This document shows, one piece after another, positions 3,238-55,645 of a DNA stretch of 64,000 bases. The position numbers were made by a program, and so were the translations under genes. The DNA is from Gimesia aquarii (lineage in GTDB: Bacteria > Planctomycetota > Planctomycetia > Planctomycetales > Planctomycetaceae). How positions within the stretch are numbered: position 1 is the first letter of the stretch; the number at the start of each line of letters is the position of its first letter. A model generated the notes under the pieces. It worked only from the letters and a program-made list of their open reading frames with translations. It was not told the origin of the DNA and did no database searches. Location: the NCBI RefSeq assembly GCF_007748175.1, contig NZ_CP037422.1, forward strand, positions 2,501,231-2,565,230. The letters are read 5' to 3'.

Positions 3238-4020
3238 CTATCGATTCGTTGGGAGAGAAGCGTTCGCACCTATGTTTCGTTCAACTGCTTTCTGTAATTT
3301 CCTGTTTCTTGCTTTTAAATCCAACTCTGATTCGTCCTTAGCAATCAAGCCAGAAAGGGGGGTATTCGCGAGCAGTTGTTTTGATTTATCTACGACAAAC
3401 TTTCCTGCATCATAAGTATATCCACCGAATGTTCTTGCCACTCGTGAAGTTGCTTTAGGCACGCCTGTTTTACTTATGAGACCTACGGTTGCTTTAGTAG
3501 TACCAGCAGTTACATTTTTAAAAGTAGCTCCAATGGGTAAATGGTTTTTATAAGCGACCTTTGCCCCTCCATCATGGGCAAACGAAATCAGGATCCGACT
3601 TTTACCATAACGGTATTCAATCATACTGGCCCAGTAGTGAACTTCAGGAGCACCAGGTAAAAGTTGGACATCAACATAAACTCGGCATTTCGTTTTGGGA
3701 TGATTCGCTACAATAATCGAGGGGCCACCCGGTAGGTAAGGTCCTTGAAATTTTCTGTTTCCAGTATAATAGTACCTATGGACAAGCACTGTAGGAGGGA
3801 TTTCGATGTTGGTGGTCTCACCCTCCGGCTGTACTAGGACTGCAGGGATCCCATCTGTACTGACACCAGGAAGAATGACCTCAATTTCCTGCGTTGCTGG
3901 TACAACTGCCTTTTTTTCTGCGTATGCCAAAGTTGTCGCAAGGCATATTGTCAAGAGGAAGGCCGTTGTCAAAATCAGATTTAATTTCATGCTATGAGTG
4001 AACTTGAGCTTAAGAAACAT
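3238..4020 (-). CDS. Exported hypothetical protein
   Basis: This is 260 residues from the ATG at 4020, which has GAGG seven bases upstream. The next ATG at 3990 would also leave a full signal peptide. A typical Sec signal follows (MKLNLILTTAFLLTICLATTL, with AYA before the cleavage site). The mature part begins with a beta-rich stretch (EIEVILPGV, VLVHRYYYTG, PSIIVANHP, CRVYVDVQLLPGAPEVHYWA). A Gly/Ala/Lys-rich region and a charged C-terminal helix (KARNRKLQKAVERN) follow. I do not recognise the family. It is the last gene of a same-strand run of exported proteins (3238-13483) that includes the giant secretin-like protein, so a role in the same envelope structure is possible but unproven. Confidence 0.7.
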   Translation of the reverse strand: MFLKLKFTHSMKLNLILTTAFLLTICLATTLAYAEKKAVVPATQEIEVILPGVSTDGIPAVLVQPEGETTNIEIPPTVLVHRYYYTGNRKFQGPYLPGGPSIIVANHPKTKCRVYVDVQLLPGAPEVHYWASMIEYRYGKSRILISFAHDGGAKVAYKNHLPIGATFKNVTAGTTKATVGLISKTGVPKATSRVARTFGGYTYDAGKFVVDKSKQLLANTPLSGLIAKDESELDLKARNRKLQKAVERNIGANASLPTNR

Positions 4021-4073
4021 CCTTTTTCCTCGATCTATGTATAAGAAGTAGTTCATATTGGATCTAACAGCGG

Positions 4074-4754
4074 CTATTCCTCGTAGAAAAATTCAATTTC
4101 TACTAAATTGATTTGGTCATAAAATTGGTAAAGGTTTTGTTGGAATTTTGAATTCCTGTTCCTCGTTTCATCGAATTGTTTGCTGAGAGGTTTTCCACTT
4201 TTAACCCAGAATACTGGAAGTGAATGCGAGGCCAATAAAGACTTTCGTTTTTGGTTTTTTGAATCACGTACATAACAATTGATGCTGACATGAAATCGAC
4301 TTCCCTTTAAATATTGTAAGTTATTTCTTTGATTGCCCAATGCTTGCTGAATCGCAGTCAATGCTTCCCCTCGCTTGGGGTTAATGTGAGCATTGAGAGA
4401 CACATTCCAGGCACCCGATTTCTGAAAGCGAAAATCGGTTTCTGTCAACACTGCCGGGATGACCAAGGGCATTTGATCTGACCGATGAAAAAAACGAATG
4501 TTTCCTTTCTGTTTAATCCCATTTTTTGCTTCATTGAGTTCATCTGTTTCAATCACTTCCTGTTCCGTGAGTTCAACAACACTGATTGCGGAATATGATC
4601 GCGTTTGATAATCGTAATTCTTTGGGAATCCACAGGTACGAGTCGGAACCCGTTTAGGGAACAATTCGCTGAAAGCCGTTCCCGTAATGATAGCTGCTGT
4701 TCCGAGAAAGCAGACAGCTAAGAATAGCTTCTTTAAATTCGTTTTGACTTCCAT
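4074..4754 (-). CDS. Exported or membrane-anchored hypothetical protein
   Basis: This encodes 226 residues. The N-terminus (KTNLKKLFLAVCFLGTAAIITGTAF) is a basic stretch followed by a hydrophobic segment, so it is either a signal peptide or a single membrane anchor. The rest is beta-rich, with VELTEQEVIETDELNE, IRFFHRSDQMPLVIPAVLTETDF and FHVSINCYVRDS. The family is not recognised. The gene lies 53 bases upstream of the 3238-4020 gene and 68 bases downstream of the giant protein gene, which suggests one transcript for all three. A periplasmic accessory protein is the simplest guess. Confidence 0.7.
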   Translation of the reverse strand: MEVKTNLKKLFLAVCFLGTAAIITGTAFSELFPKRVPTRTCGFPKNYDYQTRSYSAISVVELTEQEVIETDELNEAKNGIKQKGNIRFFHRSDQMPLVIPAVLTETDFRFQKSGAWNVSLNAHINPKRGEALTAIQQALGNQRNNLQYLKGSRFHVSINCYVRDSKNQKRKSLLASHSLPVFWVKSGKPLSKQFDETRNRNSKFQQNLYQFYDQINLVEIEFFYEE

Positions 4755-4822: not shown

Positions 4823-7800
4823 TCATTTTTTCTTGAAATACGATTTGATTCGGGATGCAGATCTCTTATAGAAACTGGATCGTTTTGGGGCAGGTGGTTG
4901 CTGTCTATTCTTAGTATTAATGATTGCTTTTACTTCATTCGCCTTTGAAGGGATTCGTCTAGGTGAGGAAATCCCGTTTGTTTTGAGATATTGCGAACTT
5001 CTTCCTTTTGTCGCTGGCAACGATTTCGGTTCTGTGGGACTCCAGGAAGCCGGTTTGAGGTTTAAGTCTTTCATCGGAAGAGCGGAACTGGGGGGCACAG
5101 TTGGTGGGATTTCAGGTAGTGGCTTGAAACGAGGTGATGAAGGAATCACAGGTACGGCATGATTTGGATCGGTCACTCCATTGCGAATCGACTCAGGAGC
5201 ATATTTTTCAGGTGGATTTTGCCACTCGGCATCATAGTTTTCCTGAATTCTGCTCCGCTTAAGATTTAAGCCAGGTCCCATATATCCATTGGGATGTACG
5301 TCCGGAATGGTTTGCTGTGTACGATATAAGTCTGATCTTCTCTCCGTTTCCTGAATTCGTAAAAATTCATCGACTTTTGAACCGGCATAATCATAAACAC
5401 GATTTTTCAAGTAACGATCACGGCCTTTCGAGATAAACTCACGATTCATTAATTGCAGCGGTCCGACATCGGCAACTGCGGGGGCCCAGCGTAAACCCAT
5501 CAGGTCAAACAGTGTCGGAAAAATCACCGCCTGACTCATGATTTGACTTTGTTGTAATGAACTTTCAGCACTAGGAGTAGGTCGGAACAGGACTCCCACA
5601 CCTGGTACATCCGAAAGTAATGGAACCCCATTTCCGGTACGAGTTGCTTTCAGAGAGATCACAAAGCGGCTGATTTCGCGTAATTCATAATTTCCTAATT
5701 GCACATCGGTATCAATAAAGTGTTCTTTGATGCGTCCGAGGTGTTTTTCATCAGCGCGAACTGGCTCTCGTACATTGGTACGATAAAGGTAATTTAAATC
5801 AAAGATTACAGATTGACCATCGGGCTGAATGACAGGTCGTACAGTGAATCCGGTACCGGTTTCAAATTTGAAGACAGCCGGGTCGGGGATCAGATTTTCA
5901 AACGCAGAACCAAATGTTTGTCCCTGTGATCCCGGTTGGCCTAAGACCTGTTTTTCTAATGAATCAGGGGGAATAGTAAATCCACCCTGGACATTTTCCC
6001 CTCCATTCATGGATGTGATTGCCAGGAATGTAGGGTCATTCACAAGTGCGCCGTATTCTTTCACTGCGGCTTGCGCGATATTCATGCCTTCAATAATTGC
6101 CAACTGCCGTTTCGGTAAGTCGAACTCCATTGTCGCCTTGGGAGCGACTTTACCGAGCGAACGATTATTGGTCAGAATACTGGAAGTTTCTATTGACCCA
6201 AACGAGACATTCCAATACCGGCTGGCATCACGCGCCGCACGGAACGCAGGAGTGTAGAACTGAGTGTTAAAGTCATCTTCGAGCGCGGTTGCAATGCGTT
6301 GTAGGTAATTATCAATATTCGCAGTATGAGATCTGGTACCTTCAACCAGTTCGATATAGCGATCCTCGGTCTGGTCGATTTGCATATCGAGAAACTTTTT
6401 GTGGTCGAGATCCTGACGGGAGTCTAGTGCATTTTGTTTTGCAAATCGAAGTTGGAGAGCAGATCCGGCCAGTGTGTTGAAGGAACTATCTACAGATTGA
6501 AAATGTTCTTTCGTTTTTTTATAGATTGGATTAGCAGACTTCAATAATGAAAATAGTTTATTACTTACTTCTCTCCACTTTATAATCGCAGCTTGAATCT
6601 CTTTTGAATCTATTCCCACTTTGCTTAGTACTTCAATGACTTCTTGAACATTCCATGCAATCTTTTGGAATTCCTCAGCGATGTTTTGGCTTACCTCTTG
6701 GATGCTGAAAAATGAGTAGGCCACGCGATGAATGTCCCTTAATGGAGTCGGTTGATCAGGATTAATATATTTCTGGTATTTTGTCGAATTGTTTAGATTC
6801 GATTTCATGTTAGGGGTCAGATTAAATAGCTCAAGTTTCTTAATCGCCTCATTTGCTTGATTTATATATTGATTCGTAATTTGATCGAAAAGTGCATATT
6901 CAGATTGGTCGGCTAAAACGAATTTGTTACCTTCTATTTTGAATTTAAAAGTTTGACCTCCATATACAAAACTACCATTAGCTTTTTTTAAAGCATCAAA
7001 TAATTCATCGTTGTTACGTTGCCCACTCATACCAGATCGCATTCGATGGTCGTTGATTTCTGACTCAAACAATTTCTTAAGAAGATTGAGAAGTTGAACG
7101 TCAAATATTGTGTCGTCGTTACCTGGAGGAAAAAATTTATTTAAAAGTGATCTCCTTTCTTTAGATGTTAATTTTGAGAGATCAATATTAATCTCTGGAT
7201 AAGCTGCATTGAGAACTGCTGTAATAATCTCATCAAAAGCCTTTTGAAATGAATCGAATTCCGTACTGATTTTCTGGTATTCATTAATAATTTGAGAAAC
7301 GCTGGCCTGTAATCCAGTGCTGGCTTTAATGACATCCAGCTGACTCTTTTGGATAGATTCCTGTACATTTTTCAGTTTTTCTTCTGCCGCTTTTTCTTTG
7401 GCTTTGGCATCAAGCAGTTCTTGCTGATTATCATCCATTGTTTGTTCGATCACCGCGCGCTCCATGACGTGTAGCCTGAGTTCGCGCTCTGTGGTAAGTT
7501 TGGCTTTGAAGATCTGAGCCAGTCGTACAAATTCACGCTGGATGGGCGTCATGGTGTCGGTGCCGATGACATTATGGTCGAAGAAACCTTTGAAGGATTG
7601 GAAGTGGGCGAACTGAGATAACAGTTTTACCTTATGTTTGGTTGCTTTTGTGGGGCCGCCTTGATAGAGAAACTGGTATTCCGCGTTGGGTAACTCCGTT
7701 TCAATCGAAGCATAAAATTGTGCCAGGATTTGTTGTCGAATTTCATTCTTGGCCAGCGCTAACACGAACAGGGCAGACGACAGACTCGTCGTATCCATGG

Positions 7801-10800
7801 AATGAATTGACAGCATTTTGTTTCCCGACTGCAGGAACTCGGAATCCATGTCTTCCAGGGCTTGGATGAAGTCTCGTCCGAAAAAGGCGTATAAGTATTT
7901 CTGGTCTCGCTGCTCCTGAGTAAACCCAATTCCTTCGTCCTGACAAGTGGAAATCGCAACTTCAGAAGCGACAGAGATGACTGCCTTTCTCAACATCTGG
8001 GCTGATTGTACGGTTAAAAAGCGACTTTGATCGATTGATTTTTGAATACGATCAGCGACGTTTTCCATGCGTTTGCCATCTTCACCATTGATTTGGATTG
8101 TATGCATCGCGATACGTACCTGCCCCACGGGAGAATCAATCTGGTTGATCATGGTGCGGATGATGTTCACCCCTTTGATCGGACCACGTAGATGAATGAG
8201 ACCTTCACCGATGACTTTAATCGTGACCTGTCGAACTGCGTCGTAAGAATCAGGGTGACCATTGGCGATCGTATAGAGATCGGTTTTTTCCGCTTGTACC
8301 TCACGCTGAAACAGTGTGGCACTTAATTGGTCTTCCTCCAACTTGAGTGACTTCAGTTTGTCATCTTCCGTATTCATGATTCCTGATAGACGACTGATAT
8401 CAGTCCGGAGACTTGTCAATTGTCCTTGAGCCGCTGTAATGGCATTGTCCAGTTGATCTTTCTTGCCTGTGCTGTCATCTTCTTTCAGTATAGCGCGCTC
8501 TCGCACCAAGCCGCCAAGAATTTGCTGCTGATTGCGATAATCGTTTTCTTTTTCACGCAGATCTTTCGCAGCACGTATCGATTTCTCTTCTTGAATGCGT
8601 CGTTGTTTGACGGTCGTTTCGTAAGTGTTACGGGCTTTATCTGCCAGGATTTGTGCCTGATGATATCCTTTGTGATTCAGAGACTGCACTTCTGAATTCA
8701 GAATCTGAGCCACACGATGGGCGTCTCGGTAGTAATACAACCGTGCGACACGGGTGACCACTCTGTCAGACGGATTAAATCCCGGGGGCGTTGGCTCACG
8801 CTTTTCATAATCGCGATATTCAACAAAATCACTGACGCCGACTTCAGGAGGGATTGAGCCTGAAGAACCTGCATCTGGTTTGTTGAGAACACGTACATAG
8901 TTAGTGCCTGGTTCACCTTTGGTACCCTCGAGGAAATTACCAAATATATCCGACACTTTATTCCCAGTAATGATTAGTTGATAGATATCAGCAGGTAAAG
9001 TAGGAAATGTAAGTACAACAGAATTGTCATGTTCTAGATAAACACCACCAGTGGCCGGTATCGCTGTGCTAGAAAGAAAAATACCAGTTCCCTTGCTCGG
9101 AATAAGTTGGAATGCGTTATAGAGCGTAGGACTGAGTGTATTAGCTGTTTTAAGTTGATTCTTGACTGAGAATTTGATCTTTAGTTTTACAACTCCTGGG
9201 GCAGTGCCAAAATTAGGGGGCTGGATGTCAATCACTTCTAAACCATTTTTTTGAATGTTAAGATTGAATGTATCAGATTGTTTTTCGGATAGCTGATTTC
9301 CCTGCGCATACTTGATATATAGCTTATGTTGTCCGTTAGGGATTGGAGCAAGGAGTTTAGCTCTTTTATTGTTAGTAAAGTCTCCATAACCTAACGGAGT
9401 ATTTGATGTGTGTGTAAAGATGACATATTGAATATTATCTAAGTTACCTTTTATGGTCTCAAAGATTGGAGTATTAGTATTTAGGAAAACAGGAGTATCT
9501 TTATCGATGGGGGTAGGCGTTTTTATTGTAGAACCTATTTTGAATTGATTTAATGGAATATTATTTGAATTGTTAGCTAATGTGCTAGTTGCTTTTTGAA
9601 TATTGATCGGCGCTGAAAAAGCAAATTGAGTTTCATCATCTATTCTTAGAGCATAGATCGTACTGTTAAGATCTTGGCTGCTGATTTTTAAAGTAGCATT
9701 CCATTCACCATTTTGATCTGCTTGATAGGATGTTACCTCTAATTGATCTGAAGGCGCGAGTGTGAGGTGGCCATTCACATTATTGAAGAGCATGAATTTT
9801 AAAGACTGCTTAGGATTAGCGTTAGTTCCAGATAATTTTAAATTCCCACCAAAGATAGCTATTGTAGATTTGACATTTGTATTTGGTTTCGCATATTTGT
9901 GGTTTTGATAAGACAAGATAGATGGCTTTAAGGGATTGGAACTCTCAGGTTTTGGGATAATTATAGTGACTGTTTTCGACAAACCTTCTCCTTGCTCAGA
10001 TAACCAACTATCTTTAAACCTGAATTGATAAATACCATCTGCGAGACCAGTTAGAGAGAATGATTCACTTGTATCCGAAAGATTCACTGGAGTTATGTTT
10101 GAAAGATCTTTGAAGTTATTGGAAGTTGATGGGATTGTGCCAATTTTTTGAAATTGAAGAAGTGTGGTTCTATCTTTACTTTTTGAGATCGTGAACTTCA
10201 AACTCGAACTCCGAAGCAGAAAACTGGAAATTCCATTGACTGTTGTATTTGACGATATCGAGCTAAGCGGTGAATAGAGAATATTGGGGGATGCTGTATC
10301 GGTGAGCGATGTAATCACAGGGTATTCAGGTTGACCTTGAGTAAGCTTATTAATCTTAAAGTTAAATCTTTGTAGTTCTTGAGAGTTTTCATCTTTACTT
10401 AAAACAATTTTATAATCCCCTGTTTTTTTAATAACAGATTGATATACATTCGAATTTGATCCACTCTGTATTAAATCTAATTTTTCACTACCAGATCCGA
10501 ATTTGAGTGAATATCCATTCGGAACATCTTCATTTATTGTAACTTTGAGTTTTACACGGGGGCCTTTGCGTTCGATGGTGGCATCACTAGTGATAGTGTC
10601 ATAGTCATTTGGTAAATCATCTTTGCTGATTTCAACTTTTTTAATAGATGGTTCATTCGTTGACTGTAGAAGAGACACTTGCTTAATTTCTGCTGCGATT
10701 TCTGTAACTGGTAGGGCGACCTTTGGTGTAGTCGGTGTCAGATGATTTACTGGTGGATTGATTAAATCAGGTGTTTGCTGAACAGACTGGGTACCGGTTC

Positions 10801-10942
10801 CTTCGACTTGCTGAATGATAGGAGCAGGTGAAGAATTTGTGCCTTGTGTAGTTTGTATCCAGTACATACCGGCTCCGATGCCGATGGCAGAGCAGAGACA
10901 GAGGGCAGTGCAGTTCAGGAGCAAGCCGAGTAATTTTTTCAT
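4823..10942 (-). CDS. Giant exported secretin-like protein with Ig-like and coiled-coil regions
   Basis: This encodes 2039 residues. A short signal peptide (KKLLGLLLNCTALCLCSAIGIGAGM) precedes a Thr/Pro/Gln-rich linker. Residues of about 100-690 are beta-strand-rich and resemble bacterial Ig-like modules. About 740-880 and 1140-1250 are charged coiled coils. Near 905-950 the run KVIGEGLIHLRGPIKGVNII and INQIDSPVGQVRIAM resembles a secretin N-domain (NolW type). Near 1700-1800 the protein shows TGFTVRPVIQPDGQSVIFDL, then an ISLKATR strand and GVPLLSDVPGVGVLFRPTP. This closely follows the end of a secretin beta-barrel domain (consensus like GVPxLSDIPxLGxLF). The C-terminus (about 1880-2039) is Pro/Lys/Arg-rich and probably disordered. 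A function as an oversized outer-membrane pore or envelope assembly is an inference; the secretin resemblance comes from motif reading only. Confidence 0.75.
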   Translation of the reverse strand: MKKLLGLLLNCTALCLCSAIGIGAGMYWIQTTQGTNSSPAPIIQQVEGTGTQSVQQTPDLINPPVNHLTPTTPKVALPVTEIAAEIKQVSLLQSTNEPSIKKVEISKDDLPNDYDTITSDATIERKGPRVKLKVTINEDVPNGYSLKFGSGSEKLDLIQSGSNSNVYQSVIKKTGDYKIVLSKDENSQELQRFNFKINKLTQGQPEYPVITSLTDTASPNILYSPLSSISSNTTVNGISSFLLRSSSLKFTISKSKDRTTLLQFQKIGTIPSTSNNFKDLSNITPVNLSDTSESFSLTGLADGIYQFRFKDSWLSEQGEGLSKTVTIIIPKPESSNPLKPSILSYQNHKYAKPNTNVKSTIAIFGGNLKLSGTNANPKQSLKFMLFNNVNGHLTLAPSDQLEVTSYQADQNGEWNATLKISSQDLNSTIYALRIDDETQFAFSAPINIQKATSTLANNSNNIPLNQFKIGSTIKTPTPIDKDTPVFLNTNTPIFETIKGNLDNIQYVIFTHTSNTPLGYGDFTNNKRAKLLAPIPNGQHKLYIKYAQGNQLSEKQSDTFNLNIQKNGLEVIDIQPPNFGTAPGVVKLKIKFSVKNQLKTANTLSPTLYNAFQLIPSKGTGIFLSSTAIPATGGVYLEHDNSVVLTFPTLPADIYQLIITGNKVSDIFGNFLEGTKGEPGTNYVRVLNKPDAGSSGSIPPEVGVSDFVEYRDYEKREPTPPGFNPSDRVVTRVARLYYYRDAHRVAQILNSEVQSLNHKGYHQAQILADKARNTYETTVKQRRIQEEKSIRAAKDLREKENDYRNQQQILGGLVRERAILKEDDSTGKKDQLDNAITAAQGQLTSLRTDISRLSGIMNTEDDKLKSLKLEEDQLSATLFQREVQAEKTDLYTIANGHPDSYDAVRQVTIKVIGEGLIHLRGPIKGVNIIRTMINQIDSPVGQVRIAMHTIQINGEDGKRMENVADRIQKSIDQSRFLTVQSAQMLRKAVISVASEVAISTCQDEGIGFTQEQRDQKYLYAFFGRDFIQALEDMDSEFLQSGNKMLSIHSMDTTSLSSALFVLALAKNEIRQQILAQFYASIETELPNAEYQFLYQGGPTKATKHKVKLLSQFAHFQSFKGFFDHNVIGTDTMTPIQREFVRLAQIFKAKLTTERELRLHVMERAVIEQTMDDNQQELLDAKAKEKAAEEKLKNVQESIQKSQLDVIKASTGLQASVSQIINEYQKISTEFDSFQKAFDEIITAVLNAAYPEINIDLSKLTSKERRSLLNKFFPPGNDDTIFDVQLLNLLKKLFESEINDHRMRSGMSGQRNNDELFDALKKANGSFVYGGQTFKFKIEGNKFVLADQSEYALFDQITNQYINQANEAIKKLELFNLTPNMKSNLNNSTKYQKYINPDQPTPLRDIHRVAYSFFSIQEVSQNIAEEFQKIAWNVQEVIEVLSKVGIDSKEIQAAIIKWREVSNKLFSLLKSANPIYKKTKEHFQSVDSSFNTLAGSALQLRFAKQNALDSRQDLDHKKFLDMQIDQTEDRYIELVEGTRSHTANIDNYLQRIATALEDDFNTQFYTPAFRAARDASRYWNVSFGSIETSSILTNNRSLGKVAPKATMEFDLPKRQLAIIEGMNIAQAAVKEYGALVNDPTFLAITSMNGGENVQGGFTIPPDSLEKQVLGQPGSQGQTFGSAFENLIPDPAVFKFETGTGFTVRPVIQPDGQSVIFDLNYLYRTNVREPVRADEKHLGRIKEHFIDTDVQLGNYELREISRFVISLKATRTGNGVPLLSDVPGVGVLFRPTPSAESSLQQSQIMSQAVIFPTLFDLMGLRWAPAVADVGPLQLMNREFISKGRDRYLKNRVYDYAGSKVDEFLRIQETERRSDLYRTQQTIPDVHPNGYMGPGLNLKRSRIQENYDAEWQNPPEKYAPESIRNGVTDPNHAVPVIPSSPRFKPLPEIPPTVPPSSALPMKDLNLKPASWSPTEPKSLPATKGRSSQYLKTNGISSPRRIPSKANEVKAIINTKNRQQPPAPKRSSFYKRSASRIKSYFKKK

Positions 10943-11272: not shown

Positions 11273-13483
11273 TTAATAAGGGCGTGTCCCAAATACAGCA
11301 CTACCACGCCGGCGAATTTCGGTGATATCATCTCGCCGATTCACAAAAATGGCTGAGTACCCGGTTACTGTAAAAGCATGTGGTTTTGTACTAGTAATCG
11401 AAGTGAGATTAAACCGATTCCTCTCTGAGGGAGTAATCGTTTGTTTGGGCAAGGTGATTGGAAACCAACCTTCACCATCCAGCTTTACCATTAACTGCAG
11501 GTTGATCTCGGCACGCATCGTGGTCTGGGCTTCAAAATTGAGTTTGAATCTTCCATCTTTGGCAATTGCCAAATGCATTTGATCCAAAACGACTCCTTCC
11601 GTTTCAATTGTATTTCCTGACGGATGAAAACGAGAAATCGGAAATGAAGCAGGGTGGGGAAACGCAAACTCTTTGATGGAGATTTTACTCTCTGAATCAC
11701 TTGTTGGATTCTGAGACGGCTTACTTGTTGTATTTTGACTTGCTGCTACTGTAGCAGCACTACCTGCTTTTGCAGCAGACGGCGTAGACGTAGTTTGTAT
11801 CGTAGATAAAAATTCCATACATTCCGAATCAGGTTTAGGTAAGGTTACTCCTGTATCACGAATTGAGAAGGAGTGGAGTTTGCCCTTCCATAGTCGGTCA
11901 TTTTGCCCATAGGGTTGTCCCAGTTCGTTACCTAGAATCAAATGACAGTCTTTTGACCATATTATGGATTTAGGAGCGTACTTCGCTTTCGGGACTGGAA
12001 CTTCTTTATGGTTGACCCAAAAGCGTAGTTTTTGACCCTCATAACTGATGACAACATTATATATTTCATCTTTTTTTAACGCGTCATAAAAGTGAATTCC
12101 TTGGTTTCCATTATGTGTAACGCTCATTCCGTTATTATTCTGGGGGTGATTATTAGCAGCCCTGAAACGAAACACCAGATGGGTGTCAAATTGCCCCAGC
12201 GTAAAATTACGCTCACCAGTGCTCTTAGACAATGAAATAATTCTTCTTAGTTGAGTTGTAGCTTTTGCTGGATCCATCGCCTGAAATGTGATATCCAGTG
12301 TAAATTCTTGTGACTTATTAAAGTCCTCTACAATTTTATCGCTGATTTTTTTTGGAAAAACTTTCATTCCCACATCAATAATGGGAGATTTAGGTGTGAT
12401 CAGCTTGTGCGATGCTGCTACCGTTTCTTTATTTGGCCAAACAAAAGTGGGAGCTTTATCCCAACCTGAGTTTTGAAACTGAAGACACTTTTTTATTTTT
12501 TTTAGTTCAGCTTCAACCGAGGTAAATTCAGTCGAGGAAGTAGGAGCAGATCCTGTGTTGTTCAAAAAATCAAATTTGTTATCTAGCTTTCTTTGTGAGT
12601 TTTCTGAAGTGGTTGTTGTGTTATTTGTGAACTCGTCTCGATTAAAATCGACCGTTCTATGTAGCAATACTGTTGTGCGAGAGACAGCTTCGATTGGGCT
12701 GGAATAACCACTTATTTTTTTATTACGCGACAAGTAAGCGGTAATAGTTGATTTACCGGGGGGAAGTACTTTGCCAAATCGATGAACTGAATTGAGGTCC
12801 AATTCTTTTGCAATGACTTTTTGACCTGCTGGCTGGCCATTCACAAAGAGTTTGATCTGATCCCTGACAACCACATTTTTAAATTTTAAACTTAAAATTC
12901 CGTCCTCTTTAGCAAGACGTTCATCAATCGAGCATAGAATCGGTGGCTCTGGTGAGGATGCAGAGACTTTGAGCCACATTAAACTGTTTTCACCATTCAA
13001 CTCTTTAATTTGAATAGAGTATACGCCAGAATTTAACCTGGGGATTACAACGGAAGAGAGGTCGTTCAATTTGTAACTCGTCTTGGGGAGATCATATTGT
13101 TTAGGCTTAAAAGCAGAAGCTCTACTTTTTATGTTCTCACTTTTGAGGACTAAGTTATCAAGATATTTCTCAAGCTGCAGTGTTATTGCCACTCGTTTTA
13201 TTGGTCGTTTTAGGGATATATAAGAGATTTTTAACGGTTGATTTGTTGACTCTATAATGGAACCTGATGAATGGAGGGGCACCCATTGTCCGCCGGTGAG
13301 CGTTTCGAATTTCAAGCGATTTTTGATTTGAGATCTTACTGTATCTTCTTCTGCAATGTTTTTTTCTACTGCTCTTAACTTCCTGTGCTTCTTAGCATGT
13401 ACATAATTTGGTAACATACTAAACAGCAGCAGTAGACTGGCTAGACCAGTGATCAATGGCTTTAAAAAACGTTGGTGTTTCAT
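11273..13483 (-). CDS. Exported protein with LamG/concanavalin-like domain
   Basis: This is 736 residues from the ATG at 13483, which has GGGAG nine bases upstream; the longer frame upstream lacks a site. The signal peptide (HQRFLKPLITGLASLLLLF) ends near VHA. Residues of about 50-290 are beta-rich and similar in style to the Ig-like front of the giant protein downstream. About 385-560 form a LamG/concanavalin-A-like domain: EFTLDITFQAM, ISLSKSTGERNFTLGQFDTH, DEIYNVVISYEGQKLRFWVNH and WKGKLHSFSIRD. An Ala/Thr/Ser linker and a further beta-rich domain close the protein. Such domains usually bind glycans or proteins. It precedes the giant secretin-like gene on the same strand, so it may be part of the same surface structure (inference). 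Confidence 0.75.
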   Translation of the reverse strand: MKHQRFLKPLITGLASLLLLFSMLPNYVHAKKHRKLRAVEKNIAEEDTVRSQIKNRLKFETLTGGQWVPLHSSGSIIESTNQPLKISYISLKRPIKRVAITLQLEKYLDNLVLKSENIKSRASAFKPKQYDLPKTSYKLNDLSSVVIPRLNSGVYSIQIKELNGENSLMWLKVSASSPEPPILCSIDERLAKEDGILSLKFKNVVVRDQIKLFVNGQPAGQKVIAKELDLNSVHRFGKVLPPGKSTITAYLSRNKKISGYSSPIEAVSRTTVLLHRTVDFNRDEFTNNTTTTSENSQRKLDNKFDFLNNTGSAPTSSTEFTSVEAELKKIKKCLQFQNSGWDKAPTFVWPNKETVAASHKLITPKSPIIDVGMKVFPKKISDKIVEDFNKSQEFTLDITFQAMDPAKATTQLRRIISLSKSTGERNFTLGQFDTHLVFRFRAANNHPQNNNGMSVTHNGNQGIHFYDALKKDEIYNVVISYEGQKLRFWVNHKEVPVPKAKYAPKSIIWSKDCHLILGNELGQPYGQNDRLWKGKLHSFSIRDTGVTLPKPDSECMEFLSTIQTTSTPSAAKAGSAATVAASQNTTSKPSQNPTSDSESKISIKEFAFPHPASFPISRFHPSGNTIETEGVVLDQMHLAIAKDGRFKLNFEAQTTMRAEINLQLMVKLDGEGWFPITLPKQTITPSERNRFNLTSITSTKPHAFTVTGYSAIFVNRRDDITEIRRRGSAVFGTRPY

Positions 13484-13983
13484 TGGCTCACTCTCCCAAA
13501 GAAGGTGTAAATTATCACTATTCAAGATAGGACTTGTCCACGTTTAAATCGTTTGTGCACATGTGTATTTACTCTAACCAGATTTTTGCGCAAAAATCAA
13601 CATGGAATTATTAAAAATAGGATGTATGGGGAATTTAAACTGAAAGAGATATTAAACCAATTCTAAAGAGGAAACTCGTAATTCAAGGTGTGCAGTATCC
13701 ACGCGGCTACCATTTTCGTAAGCCACTAATGTGAACAAAAAACATATCTAAACTGGGTGAAGTACAAAAATTGTGACAGTTTGGTCCAATTAGTTCAGCG
13801 TTAGCTAATGTTTATGCTCTCTTACACCAGATTGTTACAGTCATTGCTAAAGAGATTGTGCGCGTTTTATCTTTTATCACGCACGATAACAATTCTTTCG
13901 AAAGTGACAAAGCAAATGAGCAACTCGGGAGAAGTCAGCGTAATTTTGACGCTGTAATATAATTGGTGAAAGTAAGGTCATCC
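13484..13983. other. Gene-free spacer before transposon remnant
   Basis: 500 bases with no supported gene. It should contain the promoter of the minus-strand exported-protein run ending at 3238. Short frames here lack ribosome sites and recognisable content. Confidence 0.35.
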
Positions 13984-14290: not shown

Positions 14291-15739
14291 TTACTCTTCT
14301 TCAGTGCGTATTCGCTTTTCAATACTAATTCCCAAATCTTCGATCCTACTACGTAATGTGCTTCGTGCAATACCCAGGATCTGTGCCGCTTGAACCTGGC
14401 TACCATCAACGTAATTTAGAACACTCGGGAGTAGTATACGATCGATTCCGGCATGTACTTTTCGGTGCAGATCCTCTTCACCGGATGATAGAAGTTCTTC
14501 AACATGCTGATGGATCTCTGAAAGAGACTTAGAAGTCAATTCACTATTTGCCTTCTCAGCCTCATTTACCAGGTTATTCAAGCAGCTTGAGGGGAGACTT
14601 TCTCGTGTGATTAATTCTCCCACAGTTTGTATGAGACAATGTTTAATGACACTTTGAAGTTCTCGCACATTTCCAGGCCAATCATGTTGAATCAGCGCTG
14701 CTAAAGCATCATCACTTATCCCGCGAACGGAGTTCACAACGTGATTACCTGCCGTTTTAATAAAATGTTCGACCAGAGCAGGTATATCTTCAATCCGTTT
14801 CCTGAGCGGAGGTAATTCGATTGAGAACACATTTAATCGATAGTAGAGATCCTGGCGAAACTCGCCTGATTCAACCATCTCATCAAGATCACGATTGGTC
14901 GCAGAGATGATTCGCACATCAGCTCGTATTGTTTCATTGCTACCAACACGCTCAAAGCTTCCATCTTGAAGCAACCGTAAGACTTTAGCTTGTGTGGAGG
15001 GAGACATGTCTCCGATTTCATCTAGAAACAGCGTCCCACCATCGACTTGCTCATACTTTCCTATACGTTGCCGATCCGCACCAGTGTATGCGCCGCGTTC
15101 ATGGCCAAATAGTTCGCTTTCTAATAATGAATCTGGAATCGATGCACAATTGATAGCCATAAAAGGCCCATCTTTGCGCTGGCTATGGTGATAGATTGCC
15201 TTGGCTACCATTTCTTTTCCTGTTCCACTTTCTCCTTGAATGAGCACAGCGACATCTTGGGGAGCTGCGCGTCCAATTGCTTTATACACTTTTTGCATCG
15301 CTGGTGAGCGACCGATGATGGTATCTGTAGTTGAATCATAATCAACTTCGCCAAAGGTGGTTGGAAAATGGCTCATGCGACTGATTTTGATGGCACGATT
15401 AATAATATCCTGTAGCTGATCGAATTGAACTGGCTTGAGTAAATATTCATACGCTCCGCGTTTTGTAGCTTCAATAGCAGTCTCAGTTGTAGAGTGTGCT
15501 GTGAATATGATTACTGGTAACTTGGTATCAATTCCTCGAATTTCATTAAAAACATCGAGCCCCGACATATCAGGCAGACGAACATCCAAAATGACGGCAT
15601 CTGGCTGGAATTCTTTAACTAAATCAATTCCAGCACAACCTGTTTCTGCAGTGATGATTTCAAGCTCTTCACTCTGTAAAGTCTTCTGCAACGAGTAAAG
15701 TAGATTTGGTTCATCATCAATAATGAGTAGCCTTGCCAC
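14291..15739 (-). CDS. NtrC-family sigma-54-dependent response regulator
   Basis: This is 482 residues from a GTG at 15739. A receiver domain (residues 3-115) has the acidic pair DDE near residue 8, phospho-acceptor Asp52 (VILDVRLPD) and Lys102. A sigma-54 AAA+ domain has a Walker A (GESGTGKE, 169-176), the sigma-54 contact loop as GAYTGA (216-221) and the GDMSPSTQAKVLRLLQ region. A Fis-type helix-turn-helix ends the protein (QAAQILGIARSTLRSRIEDLGI). It activates sigma-54 promoters when phosphorylated. It starts 3 bases after the histidine kinase gene ends, so the two form a cognate pair. A good sigma-54 promoter lies at 20455 in this window, a plausible target. Confidence 0.93.
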   Translation of the reverse strand: MARLLIIDDEPNLLYSLQKTLQSEELEIITAETGCAGIDLVKEFQPDAVILDVRLPDMSGLDVFNEIRGIDTKLPVIIFTAHSTTETAIEATKRGAYEYLLKPVQFDQLQDIINRAIKISRMSHFPTTFGEVDYDSTTDTIIGRSPAMQKVYKAIGRAAPQDVAVLIQGESGTGKEMVAKAIYHHSQRKDGPFMAINCASIPDSLLESELFGHERGAYTGADRQRIGKYEQVDGGTLFLDEIGDMSPSTQAKVLRLLQDGSFERVGSNETIRADVRIISATNRDLDEMVESGEFRQDLYYRLNVFSIELPPLRKRIEDIPALVEHFIKTAGNHVVNSVRGISDDALAALIQHDWPGNVRELQSVIKHCLIQTVGELITRESLPSSCLNNLVNEAEKANSELTSKSLSEIHQHVEELLSSGEEDLHRKVHAGIDRILLPSVLNYVDGSQVQAAQILGIARSTLRSRIEDLGISIEKRIRTEEE

Positions 15740-15742
15740 GAT

Positions 15743-17278
15743 TCATTTTCCATTCGTAATCAATTTATCAAGTTCGGGTCGATCCTCTCCTACGGAGATT
15801 CTATCATTAGTCATTATAGGTAAACGAACAGTTATAATTGCCCCTTTCTCGAGTCCATTAGCAATAGTCAGCTCTCCCTGGTGTGCTTCAACAATTCGTT
15901 TACAAGTAACGAGCCCCATTCCGAGTCCCTCATTCTTGGTACTAAAAAACGGCTCAAACGCGCGATTGAGTGCTTCCGGTCCTAAACCGTTTCCTTCATC
16001 TCGTATGATGAGCAGACAGTATCGTTCATCATGAGGATCGATTGATAAATCCAATTCGATAGTACCTTGCGTGAAGGTAGCATCAATTGAATTGAGTAAC
16101 AGATTGAGAATCAGTTGCCGTAATTGTTTGTCATCGGCCAGAACGTTAACAGGAGCATTCGTAGTGATTACTTTGATCTCAATGCCGACCTGAGTCGCTT
16201 TTGCCAGCAGAAAGTCGGCTGTTTGTTCTGCAAGTTTACGGAGGTCAATTCTTGAAAATTCCATTTTTGCAGGACGCGCAAAGTTTAGAAACTCTTGTAG
16301 GAGTCGATCGAGTCTCTGCATTTCATCGTTGAGTACGTGCAGGTCACTCTCATCCAATGTTCGAGTTTGATCAGTTAATGCCGATTGCACGAGTACCGTC
16401 ATACACATCAAAGGATTTCTCAGTTCGTGCGCCAAGCCAGCTGACAGCTGACCCAAGGCTGCTAATTGATCAGCACGAATCACTTCACTCTGCCGGTCTT
16501 GCAATTGCTGAATTACTGATGCAACTTCATCAGATACAGTATTAAGTGCATTTTCAAGATCTTCGATCTCCGGATTGGCGGACATAGTCACTGGTCCAAC
16601 AACTTCGTTCAATTGGCCTGCAACATCCTTCAATGGCAAACTGAGTTTTACAATGGATCGACTGATAGTACTTGCCACGCCATAGCCGGTAACCAGCCCG
16701 GCAATGGCACCACATGTTCCTAATAGAAGTAGTGCCAGGACTAGACGATCAGCAAACTCTTGATTTTCACGATTGCTTGCTTCCAACTTTTGCTCATTAA
16801 TATTGAGATAATTTGTTGCAGAAGGCAAGATATTCTTTGACAACTCTTCTTCAACAAGAAATTCGACCTCTTTTCTAAGCTCTTGTGAATCAGATGATTG
16901 AGAGAGTTGGTTCAATTTCGCGAATAGTCGCATCAGACCCTCTCTGATTGCTGCAAGTGATTCCTGTTCTTCAGACGAATTTGCCAACTCACTAGCTTTG
17001 CTAAGCCATTCGTTGATTTTAGGTTTTATTTCCTTAGCGTGACCTATTCTGTGGTATTTACCCTCGATCAGAAATTGATTTAATTCAAAACGGACCTGCA
17101 ATAAATACAAATTCAGTTCTTCTGCCGCACGAATGCTGGCAACATTCTGGTTCAAGACTTTAGAAGTTTGTCGCTGTAATCTCTGTACGTACCATGCTCC
17201 CGACACACCAACAATCAGCAGTAGCAAACTGATGCAAATAATAGGAGCTGCGATTCGGATAGTTGTCCTGAATTTCAA
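15743..17278 (-). CDS. Membrane sensor histidine kinase
   Basis: This is 511 residues from a TTG at 17278 (AGGA seven bases upstream). Transmembrane segments at about 10-30 and 178-202 flank a helical periplasmic sensor region of about 145 residues. A HAMP-like linker follows, then the dimerisation/phospho-acceptor domain with His284 (GLAHELRNPLMCM). The ATPase domain carries the N box (LILNLLLNSIDAT), the DEGNGLG G1 box and GLGMGLVTCKRIVEAHQG. It phosphorylates the adjoining NtrC-type regulator. The stimulus is unknown. The SulP-carbonic anhydrase gene 216 bases upstream on the same strand suggests a link to bicarbonate or anion status (inference). Confidence 0.92.
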   Translation of the reverse strand: MKFRTTIRIAAPIICISLLLLIVGVSGAWYVQRLQRQTSKVLNQNVASIRAAEELNLYLLQVRFELNQFLIEGKYHRIGHAKEIKPKINEWLSKASELANSSEEQESLAAIREGLMRLFAKLNQLSQSSDSQELRKEVEFLVEEELSKNILPSATNYLNINEQKLEASNRENQEFADRLVLALLLLGTCGAIAGLVTGYGVASTISRSIVKLSLPLKDVAGQLNEVVGPVTMSANPEIEDLENALNTVSDEVASVIQQLQDRQSEVIRADQLAALGQLSAGLAHELRNPLMCMTVLVQSALTDQTRTLDESDLHVLNDEMQRLDRLLQEFLNFARPAKMEFSRIDLRKLAEQTADFLLAKATQVGIEIKVITTNAPVNVLADDKQLRQLILNLLLNSIDATFTQGTIELDLSIDPHDERYCLLIIRDEGNGLGPEALNRAFEPFFSTKNEGLGMGLVTCKRIVEAHQGELTIANGLEKGAIITVRLPIMTNDRISVGEDRPELDKLITNGK

Positions 17279-17494: not shown

Positions 17495-19789
17495 CTATCT
17501 CTGAAATCTTGACTTGGAATTATTACGTGGAGAGCCATTGATACGGCGGTGTTCTTCTAAAAAATTGATACAGCCTGTAGTCGTATCATACATTGCACCG
17601 ACGATCGCTAGTTTTCCTGAATGGACTCGTTCTCTGATTGCCTTACTTGATTGCAGTACAGATTCTACGGATAGCAGCACATTTTGGTGACTGACCGCAT
17701 CAACGAATTCGTATCGATCTCTGTCTGATGAGATTTGGGAAGCATGACAATAACCTGGGTTGAGCGACTGTGCGATTTTGTCAACAACTTGTTTGAGATG
17801 TGCACAGTCACAATTGTTGTTCGCTGGACTATTTGAACAGATACTATCAATTGTCGCACTAATCGCTCCGCACCGTGTGTGTCCCATTATGACAAGCAAC
17901 GGAGCACCCTCAATAACACAACCATATTCAAGGCTTGCCAGAACCTCGGGAGTTATTGCGTTTCCTGAAATTCGAACACTGAATGCATCGCCCAAATCGA
18001 GGTCAAAAATTAACTCAACCGAGGCACGAGGATCAATACAGCTGAGTACCACAGCTAATGGAGGGTGGGTATTGATTGTGGTATTAAGCTGCTGTTTCAG
18101 ATCACGTCTGAGTATTGAGCCTGTACGAAACCTCTCATTCCCTTCACGAAGTAGACTCAAAACCTTCTGCGGTGTGAGTTGTTCTTGTAGGTCTCGTGCC
18201 GAGTAATCGACATACTGTATTTCATTCTTCAATTGATAATTCAGTTGATATTTCTCGCTAAACCCACGAAGACTTAAGTTGATACCACGAGCAGGAGCCG
18301 TGGTACTTTCGAATTCACGTAACATGCTGAGAACATCTGGATCAATGTAGAAAGTGTTACGGCCGTCGATCAGAGCAAAACTACCTCTTGGGATTTCCTG
18401 TAATGCCTGCTTGATCACAGCACGATTAAGAAAACAGATTTGGTTGGCAAGTTCAATTTTCATAACTTTGCCACCGATGTGCTTTTCCCAAATGCGAGAG
18501 AGTGGGCGTTTCATATTGTTATACAAAATGAAAATGGTGCTGATAACGATGCCAATTAAGAGACCTACCACGACATCTATAAAAACAATGGCTATTACCG
18601 TAATGATATAAGGCGCGAACTGATACGGTCCCTCACGGTATGTTTTTTTTATCAAGGTTGGACTGGCAAGTTTAAAGCCGGCAATCAGCAGAATCCCTGC
18701 TATGCAGGAAAGTGGAATCAGATTCAATATTTGGGGCACCAGCAAGAAACAGCTGAATAACAGAAAACCATTTAATATTGTTGAAAGCTTTGTTTGCCCA
18801 CTTGCATTGATATTAACTGAACTGCGAACAATAGTAGAAGCAACTGGAAGTCCTCCAAACATGCCGGCAACGATATTGCCGATTCCCTGCGCAAAGAGTT
18901 CACGATTAGGAGGCGATTGTCTCTGCTGTGGATCAATTCGGTCTGCTGCTTCCAGGCTGAACAGCGTTTCCAATGAACTGACCATGGCAATCAATAAAGC
19001 TGCCGTATAGATTTGCGGGTTAGACCATAGCGAGAAATCCGGAAATACGAGAAATTGCTGGAATCCTTGGAGGCCGTTCGCTACCGGAACCTGAACCAGA
19101 TGCGATGTTTGTATGGACCAGTCGCCTCCAAGGCGTTCAAAAAACTGACTCAGCGCGGTTCCTAGAATAACTACGATCAATGGTGCTGGGATGGATGAAC
19201 GTTTCAAAAAAGATATTTGCTCCCATAAAATTAAAAGCATGATTGAGAGCAATCCAATCATTGCTGCACCCAGATGCCATTGTCCCTCAAACAGCATGAG
19301 CAACTCTGAAAATAGTTTTTGACTGTCAGTCTGCACAAAAGATACTTTGCCTTCTGGATTAGTATCATGCCCAAGAAGATGTGGAAGTTGATTCAGTATG
19401 AGAATCACACCGATTGCCGTCAAAAACGCTTTTACCACAATCGTGGGGATAAACATTGCAATAAATCCTGCCCGGCAAAGGCCAATAGCTACCTGAACCA
19501 GACCGGCAATAATGACCACCAGCAAAAAGGCTTCAAACGAGCCAAAATGAGCGATCTGTGCCGCCACGATAACGGTTAAGCCAAATGCTGGCCCAGTTAC
19601 ACTTGAGTGTGAATGACTAAGCACCCCCACTACGATACCACCCACAATTCCCGAAATGATTCCTGAAACGAGAGGGGCATTCGAGGCCAGCGCGATTCCT
19701 AAGCAAAGGGGTAAGGTTACCAGAAACAGAACCAGACTAGCTTTTACATCATGGCCTACTGTTTCTCGCTTCAGCTTTTGCCGATTCAT
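17495..19789 (-). CDS. SulP-family anion transporter fused to beta-carbonic anhydrase
   Basis: This encodes 764 residues. Residues of about 15-430 form the SulP/SLC26-type membrane domain: many hydrophobic helices, HSSVTGPAFGLTVIVAAQ near the substrate site, and the PVASTIVRSSVNINASGQTK signature. About 435-525 look like a STAS domain (GSFALIDGRNTFYIDPDVL). The C-terminal domain (about 535-755) is a beta-carbonic anhydrase. It has a zinc-ligand Cys with the Asp-Arg dyad in SCIDPRAS (about residue 584) and the His and Cys ligands in GHTRCGA (about residue 637). The fusion couples anion, probably bicarbonate, movement to CO2/HCO3- interconversion at the inner membrane. It lies upstream of the two-component genes on the same strand. 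Confidence 0.93.
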   Translation of the reverse strand: MNRQKLKRETVGHDVKASLVLFLVTLPLCLGIALASNAPLVSGIISGIVGGIVVGVLSHSHSSVTGPAFGLTVIVAAQIAHFGSFEAFLLVVIIAGLVQVAIGLCRAGFIAMFIPTIVVKAFLTAIGVILILNQLPHLLGHDTNPEGKVSFVQTDSQKLFSELLMLFEGQWHLGAAMIGLLSIMLLILWEQISFLKRSSIPAPLIVVILGTALSQFFERLGGDWSIQTSHLVQVPVANGLQGFQQFLVFPDFSLWSNPQIYTAALLIAMVSSLETLFSLEAADRIDPQQRQSPPNRELFAQGIGNIVAGMFGGLPVASTIVRSSVNINASGQTKLSTILNGFLLFSCFLLVPQILNLIPLSCIAGILLIAGFKLASPTLIKKTYREGPYQFAPYIITVIAIVFIDVVVGLLIGIVISTIFILYNNMKRPLSRIWEKHIGGKVMKIELANQICFLNRAVIKQALQEIPRGSFALIDGRNTFYIDPDVLSMLREFESTTAPARGINLSLRGFSEKYQLNYQLKNEIQYVDYSARDLQEQLTPQKVLSLLREGNERFRTGSILRRDLKQQLNTTINTHPPLAVVLSCIDPRASVELIFDLDLGDAFSVRISGNAITPEVLASLEYGCVIEGAPLLVIMGHTRCGAISATIDSICSNSPANNNCDCAHLKQVVDKIAQSLNPGYCHASQISSDRDRYEFVDAVSHQNVLLSVESVLQSSKAIRERVHSGKLAIVGAMYDTTTGCINFLEEHRRINGSPRNNSKSRFQR

Positions 19790-55039: not shown

Positions 55040-55645
55040 ATGATGGAAGAACAGGAATCCTTATCTGTCACAGCTTGGATCAAAGCTTTGAAAAAAGGGG
55101 AGGCTGATGCCGCTCAGAAACTCTGGAAGCGGTACTTTACCAAGCTCGTAGATCAAGCCGAGGCGCGGATTCGAAATTGCCCACCAGGGAGCCTTGAAGC
55201 GGAAGACATTGCGGTTTCTGTCTTTGAAAGTCTCTGGCGTGGTGCCCAGGAAGGTCGCTTCCAGAATTTGCATGATCGAAGCGCACTGTGGTGGCTTTTT
55301 TTAGCACTCACAAAACAAAAAGTTGCCAGTCATATTCGTAGAGAAACCGCCCTCAAACGAGGTGGCAACAGTACTCCAAAGTCGATAAATAATGATGAGG
55401 ACTCTGGTTACACTTTTGAACAATTAATCTCTGAAGAGCCGACTCCTGAGTATCTGGCGATTCTTCAGGAAGAATACGAACATTTATTATCCATATTACG
55501 TGATGATCGATTACGCGAAATTGCGGTTCTTAGATTAGAAGGATATACAAGTCAGGAAATCAGCGAACAGTTGGAGATTTCTATTCCGACTGTCACGCGA
55601 AAATTGCGGCTGATCCGCGCTGCATGGTCGAAAGAGTTGGCGTAA
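55040..55645 (+). CDS. ECF RNA polymerase sigma factor (planctomycete type)
   Basis: This is 201 residues; the start could also be the next ATG at 55043. Region 2 (about 12-100) has AWIKALKKGEADAAQKLWKRYF, LEAEDIAVSVFESLWRGAQEG and SALWWLFLALTKQKVASHIRRE. Region 4 (about 140-195) has AILQEEYEHLLSILRDDRLREIAVLRLEGYTSQEISEQLEIS and TVTRKLRLIRAAW, the DNA-binding helix. This is the ECF subgroup that in planctomycetes lies next to Ser/Thr kinases and is thought to be switched by phosphorylation in place of an anti-sigma factor. Its stop overlaps the kinase start (TAATG), so both proteins are made together. Confidence 0.92.
   Translation: MMEEQESLSVTAWIKALKKGEADAAQKLWKRYFTKLVDQAEARIRNCPPGSLEAEDIAVSVFESLWRGAQEGRFQNLHDRSALWWLFLALTKQKVASHIRRETALKRGGNSTPKSINNDEDSGYTFEQLISEEPTPEYLAILQEEYEHLLSILRDDRLREIAVLRLEGYTSQEISEQLEISIPTVTRKLRLIRAAWSKELA

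Follow-up and report, generated by a model that had tools for sequence, protein, structure and literature searches.

A 64,000-nucleotide stretch of Gimesia aquarii DNA (assembly GCF_007748175.1, contig NZ_CP037422.1, positions 2,501,231 to 2,565,230 of the forward strand; hereafter the window) contains a gene for a 2039-residue protein with secretin-like features near its C-terminus. Secretins form rings that serve as pores in the outer membranes of bacteria, and those known to us act as outlets for type II, type III, type IV-pilus and filamentous-phage machines. The locus raises the question of whether this giant protein is a secretin at all and, if so, what kind of system it belongs to. An earlier note on the locus, made from the DNA letters and their translations, overlooked two features that are described here, namely the interruption of the secretin domain and the conservation of the partner genes. 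Coordinates are collected in Table 1.

Secretin core of the giant protein

Translation confirmed an intact reading frame over the full length of the gene, and the secretin barrel that the earlier note had placed in the C-terminal part was borne out. With hmmscan, the Pfam family Secretin (PF00263) matched residues 1692–1790 over positions 54–151 of the 169 in the profile (E = 6.9e-6). In a six-frame search of the source genome, which gave Secretin matches at ten places, the protein scored 30.1 bits, above the cut-off. The same family was matched by 9 of 13 family members at E ≤ 0.1 and by 31 of 49 at E ≤ 0.01. In a profile–profile comparison with nine other planctomycete secretins, residues 1670–1840 aligned (E = 2e-7, probability 93.6%); when the columns of this profile were shuffled 200 times, no shuffle scored as high. 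A search of PDB sequences with the C-terminal profile gave GspD as the best natural matches (E = 0.0075 and weaker). The top rows of that search, designed repeat proteins named ‘Cake’ in which a 31-column stretch was repeated many times, were taken as artefacts. NCBIfam gave no relevant match.

A monomer model of residues 715–1880 was predicted from an alignment of 49 sequences, with a mean predicted local distance difference test score (pLDDT) of 76.3. Foldseek returned 25 PDB matches at E ≤ 1e-3, every one from entries of secretins or secretin-bearing complexes, and the secretin barrel fold was thus found in the predicted monomer. In a structural alignment, the best secretin row was pIV of the filamentous phage f1 (7ofh; Z 12.9, 197 of 231 residues, root-mean-square deviation 5.3). 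The alignments to pIV, GspD and InvG ran from model residues 7–15 to 1095–1102 and hence included the N-domain. The protein is confirmed as a genuine but very unusual secretin relative.

Interruption of the secretin domain

Computation showed that a coiled-coil hairpin interrupts the N-domain and that approximately 630 mainly helical residues are inserted past the first secretin strand. The hairpin consists of two helices (model residues 43–106 and 111–172), and the long coiled coils that had been expected in the middle of the protein were visible in the model. Between the end of the first strand and the SSILTNN motif lie 634 residues in the window protein and 312–679 in genes uncut by contig ends, a range that omits the short values of L067, L073, L079 and L083, whose genes are cut. 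The same distance is 56–102 residues in ordinary planctomycete secretins, as counted in the seven of nine comparison proteins that were measurable by pattern (L050 and L001 were unmeasured). As far as model residue 520, the insert was modelled mostly with pLDDT values above 85, and at model residues 520–700 with values of about 45–80. Its only strands (model residues 609–629, protein residues 1323–1343) fall in a stretch that is absent from short members. At the gate position, the window protein has 84 residues and 47 members have 69–108; a visual count in two of the comparison secretins gave approximately 17–22.

Residues 880–965, in the second half of the N-domain, aligned weakly at the position expected for a secretin N-domain (E = 0.0011; 0 of 200 shuffles as high). 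Together with the structural alignments, this weak match lends some support to the NolW-like segment that had been proposed upstream of the barrel; when the N region was used to query PDB sequences, no secretin was retrieved. The N-terminus is hydrophobic, and hydropathy peaks in the 19 residues from residue 4 onwards (mean 2.15). About 600 residues of immunoglobulin (Ig)-like modules had been suggested for the N-terminal part. One such module was found just ahead of the N-domain (i-E 6.6e-50), with a profile that was started from the stretches of two relatives that match Big_5 and then iterated. Big_5 itself matched relatives only, and weakly. Nothing else in the first 700 residues was assigned, and residues 1–714 of the window protein gave no match of their own at E 0.1.

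Conserved partner genes

The secretin gene is part of a same-strand series in the order upstream protein, secretin, A226, B272, with gaps of 330, 68 and 17 bases; the spacing from the secretin to A226 and B272 is operon-like. In scans for promoters and terminators, shuffled sequence yielded more sites than the locus itself. A contig search with the family alignment yielded 48 loci, whereas a query with the single protein had found none. In profile searches of these loci, B272 was present in 32, A226 in 24 and the C-terminal domain of the upstream protein in 13. Where at least 2 kb was available on both sides, 23 of 25 loci contained B272. One of the two exceptions, L070, does have B272 adjacent, as seen on the same contig (G051:C53) in a search of 393 genomes; the other is a short solo form. 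Two arrangements were observed: B272 lies either downstream of the secretin, past A226, or upstream and directly adjoining the secretin.

Strong B272 matches were present in 11 of the 393 genomes, all among the 12 genomes with a strong secretin match (hypergeometric probability 1.6e-20, which is overstated because related genomes are not independent). The twelfth, G054, has a short-form secretin. Three genomes without a strong secretin match had weak B272 matches (1e-8, 7e-5 and 7e-4), two of them with internal stop codons. No other neighbour family recurred at a fixed place near the secretin in the 48 loci. Apart from a small group resembling A226, the other recurrent neighbours were genes common in planctomycetes, and their distances varied. 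Computation thus showed that the secretin is co-inherited with B272 and often with A226, as a private cassette.

The window copy of B272 had no Pfam match, and across its family five unrelated Pfam families matched one member each (E 0.01–0.1). Its predicted model (pLDDT 77.7) contains a confident beta-rich domain. Foldseek matched this model to nothing in the PDB at E ≤ 0.001, the best VIA Z among the families listed was 4.6, and no fold is claimed. The part common to the upstream proteins is their C-terminal stretch of approximately 110 residues; LamG matched weakly in 2 of 13 members. A common origin of A226 and this C-terminal domain was considered and dropped (hhalign probability 9%). Directly upstream of the cassette, on the same strand, a histidine kinase and a sigma-54 response regulator are encoded as a pair (14291–17278), a possible regulator. 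The pair matched no cassette neighbour in the 13 relative loci compared.

The earlier note had seen no type II or III secretion genes beside the secretin, and the comparisons made here agree. No T2SSE ATPase was encoded within the 64-kb window, the nearest lying approximately 474 kb away in a genome search. Among the 20 window proteins scanned against Pfam, out of 52 open reading frames listed, there were no secretion-platform proteins, no gsp genes and no injectisome genes (type III secretion families were not searched genome-wide). Nor did gsp genes recur beside the 48 family loci.

Distribution of the family

The family is patchily distributed. Among 59 close relatives, including the source genome, 13 matched, one of them weakly, and in the source genus the family was present in 4 of 17 genomes. 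Strong matches (E < 1e-100) occurred in 12 of the 393 genomes, which were spread over Planctomycetota; all 12 were from the same genus, family or class. A further 58 had weak matches only (4e-7 to 1e-3), mostly at positions common to ordinary secretins. The 48 loci carried Planctomycetota-type titles, except for four titled ‘bacterium’ and one under the label Candidatus Nealsonbacteria. The latter (L064) carries the family and A226 and fell among planctomycete rows in the tree; it is probably a misbinned contig. No relative of the family was found in viral contigs.

Relatives in other genomes reached 2230 residues, the smallest of that set (1950 residues) being cut at a contig end. The 34 genes that did not start at a contig edge encoded 446–2229 residues (median 1664.5), of which the shortest may be fragments. 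The family tree has long branches, and no ancestral status is claimed for the short solo forms.

Comparison with known secretins

The giant protein shares with GspD, PulD and XcpQ the C-terminal barrel core, the P-x-L-x-D-x-P-x-x-G-x-L-F element and, by its predicted model and a weak profile match, an N-domain ahead of the first strand. It differs from them in its single, coiled-coil-split N-domain, the barrel insert and the Ig-like N-terminal part, and no gsp genes were found near it. PilQ and InvG, which stood at ranks 1 and 6 in Foldseek, have a similar barrel, but they have dedicated pilus or injectisome genes, none of which were seen beside the giant secretin. The best secretin in the structural alignment, pIV, is likewise not known to have its own bacterial secretion platform; unlike the giant protein, it is small and lacks helical inserts.

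Other Planctomycetota secretins with multiple N-domains (L104, L105, L048 and L050) are also very large. L104 and L105 matched the family profile at E 1e-4 or weaker, and the L048 locus at 3.4e-6. The frames L104:3-12590 and L105:2-12601 run off the edge of their loci and encode secretins of more than 4195 residues with one normal Secretin domain each. In contrast to the giant split secretin, they owe their length to repeated N-domains (29 and 37 Secretin_N stretches) and their Secretin domain is uninterrupted. Fourteen frames of 3858–5073 residues in other Planctomycetota gave weak matches to the family profile; those looked at were L104, L105 and L106. In the source genome, long Secretin-matching frames are present at G000:C1:2012622 (L050; 1353 residues), 1877714 (L007; 1713 residues) and 479772 (1123 residues). 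A large size is therefore not remarkable in itself among planctomycetes, because these other frames, in the same genome and elsewhere in the phylum, match secretin profiles as well. A 1248-residue frame at G000:C1:2027844-2029742, close to a T2SSE gene at 2025768, had several Secretin_N matches and no Secretin match.

Weighing of alternative explanations

We favour, with a probability of roughly 0.6, the reading of the protein as a highly derived secretin, which would form a homo-oligomeric outer-membrane ring within its own small cassette and would not be an exit port of a type II, type III or type IV-pilus system. Several observations weigh against this reading. The hmmscan score of the window protein (26.2 bits) is just below the cut-off of 27.5. 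Secretin_N (PF03958) matched the N-domain neither in the window protein nor in the family, and the probability of the N-domain profile match was 20.8%; of the profile check suggested for residues 880–960 and 1650–1830, the Secretin part succeeded and the N-domain part gave this weak result, which also tempers the NolW-like assignment. The monomer model has a predicted template-modelling score of 0.58. The Foldseek TM-scores are low (0.06–0.10 on the model, 0.14–0.26 on the secretins) and the deviations large; we attribute the low scores to the size of the model and the spread of its strands. In the structural alignment, unrelated coiled-coil proteins tie with secretins on Z. The lip strands of ordinary secretins were not visible in the monomer model, which has the mainly helical insert instead, so that membrane insertion is putative. 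Finally, short solo forms that lack B272 occur (L100, 820 residues), and the co-occurrence count ignores shared ancestry.

The sub-threshold Pfam score would also be expected if the secretin resemblance were a chance motif. This is barely credible in view of the independent matches of 31 of 49 members, the failure of all 200 profile shuffles to score as high and the PDB fold matches. A periplasmic or surface scaffold is unlikely. Here, a secretin ring that had lost its lip and its pore would merely bring the coiled coils and Ig modules together as oligomers; the model indeed lacks a strand pair from the first secretin strand to the terminal helix, where others have the lip, and the only strands of the insert sit where short members have no equivalent. 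This explanation sits poorly with the P-x-L-x-D-x-P-x-x-G-x-L-F element, which is strongly conserved in the family, is taken as an outer-membrane contact elsewhere and is, we presume, the amphipathic loop of secretins. Such a loop, contacting the outer membrane, is described for secretins in PMC6532946 (section 7).

We consider it quite improbable that the protein is a conventional exit port for a type II or type IV-pilus platform whose genes lie at another place in the genome. Platforms do exist there, with 16 matches to the T2SSE ATPase family, and two other secretins have T2SSE genes within approximately 6 and 13 kb. However, those secretins already serve such platforms, the giant secretin is without the multiple N-domains used by other secretins for docking, and platform genes were never recurrent in the family neighbourhoods. 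As for the giant pore or pit structure suggested earlier, its self-contained character agrees with the private, conserved cassette; that the protein forms the crateriform pits of planctomycete cells is very improbable. Large size, an envelope-spanning architecture and confinement to Planctomycetota-type records would fit, and the pits are likewise outer-membrane complexes of this phylum, linked to the inner membrane according to PMC5394234, a study of Planctopirus limnophila. Yet crateriform structures are described in PMC11131199 as a general planctomycete feature. A component of the pits should be present throughout pit-bearing planctomycetes, whereas the family was found in 12 of 393 genomes of the phylum and 4 of 17 in the genus, the pit status of individual genomes not being known. 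The pit reading is unsupported because this distribution is too patchy. The word ‘secretin’ is absent from the main text of PMC5394234, and no locus titled P. limnophila was among the 48 (inclusion of the species in the searched contigs was not checked).

Proposed mechanism

If the protein is a ring-forming secretin with its own cassette, it would be exported via its hydrophobic N-terminus and would assemble into a ring through the N-domain and barrel, by analogy with other secretins, whose outer-membrane rings comprise about 12–16 copies. In ordinary secretins, the lip strands come after the first strand and cap hairpins lie on top, which is presumably the position of the helical insert. At the membrane end of the ring, the insert may therefore build a collar or crown, a placement chosen because lip and cap occupy that position in ordinary secretins. 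Lip strands are the major membrane-spanning region of secretins according to PMC6532946 (section 7). The ring domain would carry a corona of coiled coils, and the Ig-like N-terminal arm might extend into the wide planctomycete periplasm or be fixed to the inner membrane. Both B272 and A226 may help the ring to assemble or form part of it, whereas the upstream protein may be a surface partner or cargo. Since the cassette has no ATPase or pilin gene, a passive conduit or an anchoring ring for a large surface molecule would be expected rather than motor-driven secretion. We tentatively propose, at somewhat less than even odds, a new, self-contained type of planctomycete envelope channel in which a helical crown replaces lip and cap, and which, with its coiled-coil corona and two dedicated small partners, passes or anchors a large surface molecule without the known platforms.

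Features of the window

Two gene fusions were noted outside the cassette. A carbonic anhydrase domain is fused to a transporter of the Sulfate permease family (17495–19789, minus strand), and an FGE-sulfatase domain is fused to a protein kinase (55624–57984, plus strand).

Table 1. Position of the giant secretin, its parts and its cassette neighbours in the window
Feature	Position	Strand	Residues	Basis or remark
Giant split secretin	4823..10942	-	2039 in total	Intact frame; secretin by Pfam, profile–profile comparison and predicted fold
Putative signal peptide or membrane anchor (hydrophobic segment)	10859..10933	-	4–28	
Ig-like (Big_5-type) module	8897..9256	-	563–682	Just ahead of N-domain
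Split N-domain (NolW/N3-like)	8084..8761	-	728–953	Leads into first secretin strand; model and profile alignment
Coiled-coil hairpin inside N-domain	8285..8674	-	757–886	Model
First secretin-domain strand	8084..8122	-	941–953	Model and profile alignment
Mainly helical insert	6224..8077	-	956–1573	First strand to rest of barrel, ~620 residues
Remaining secretin barrel strands	5519..6208	-	1579–1808	Pfam, model, Foldseek, profile alignment
Enlarged, partly helical region at gate position	5882..6100	-	1615–1687	pLDDT largely <50
P-x-L-x-D-x-P-x-x-G-x-L-F element	5585..5629	-	1772–1786	Motif GVPLLSDVPGVGVLF; secretin-conserved element
C-terminal tail	4826..5362	-	1861–2039	Proline-rich, basic near end; from translation
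Upstream protein	11273..13525	-	750 in total	Weak LamG match (22.3 bits, cut-off 27.6)
A226	4074..4754	-	226 in total	Hydrophobic N-terminus; starts 68 bases past secretin gene
B272	3238..4056	-	272 in total	Signal-like N-terminus; 17 bases past A226; beta-rich domain

Significance

No description of the family was found in the open-access literature (subscription journals and preprints lay outside the search). The core belongs to a known superfamily; the interrupted barrel domain and the private cassette are undescribed as far as these searches show. B272 adds a family without a Pfam match for the window copy or a PDB fold match at the threshold used. If true, the secretin fold would gain a further use, in a conserved protein that has a cassette of its own and an interrupted barrel but lacks platform genes. 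The giant secretin would also test how much remodelling of the barrel still allows a ring to assemble. The planctomycete envelope remains poorly explained, and the gene offers a concrete, deletable candidate for a role in moving macromolecules across it or in anchoring them at the surface.

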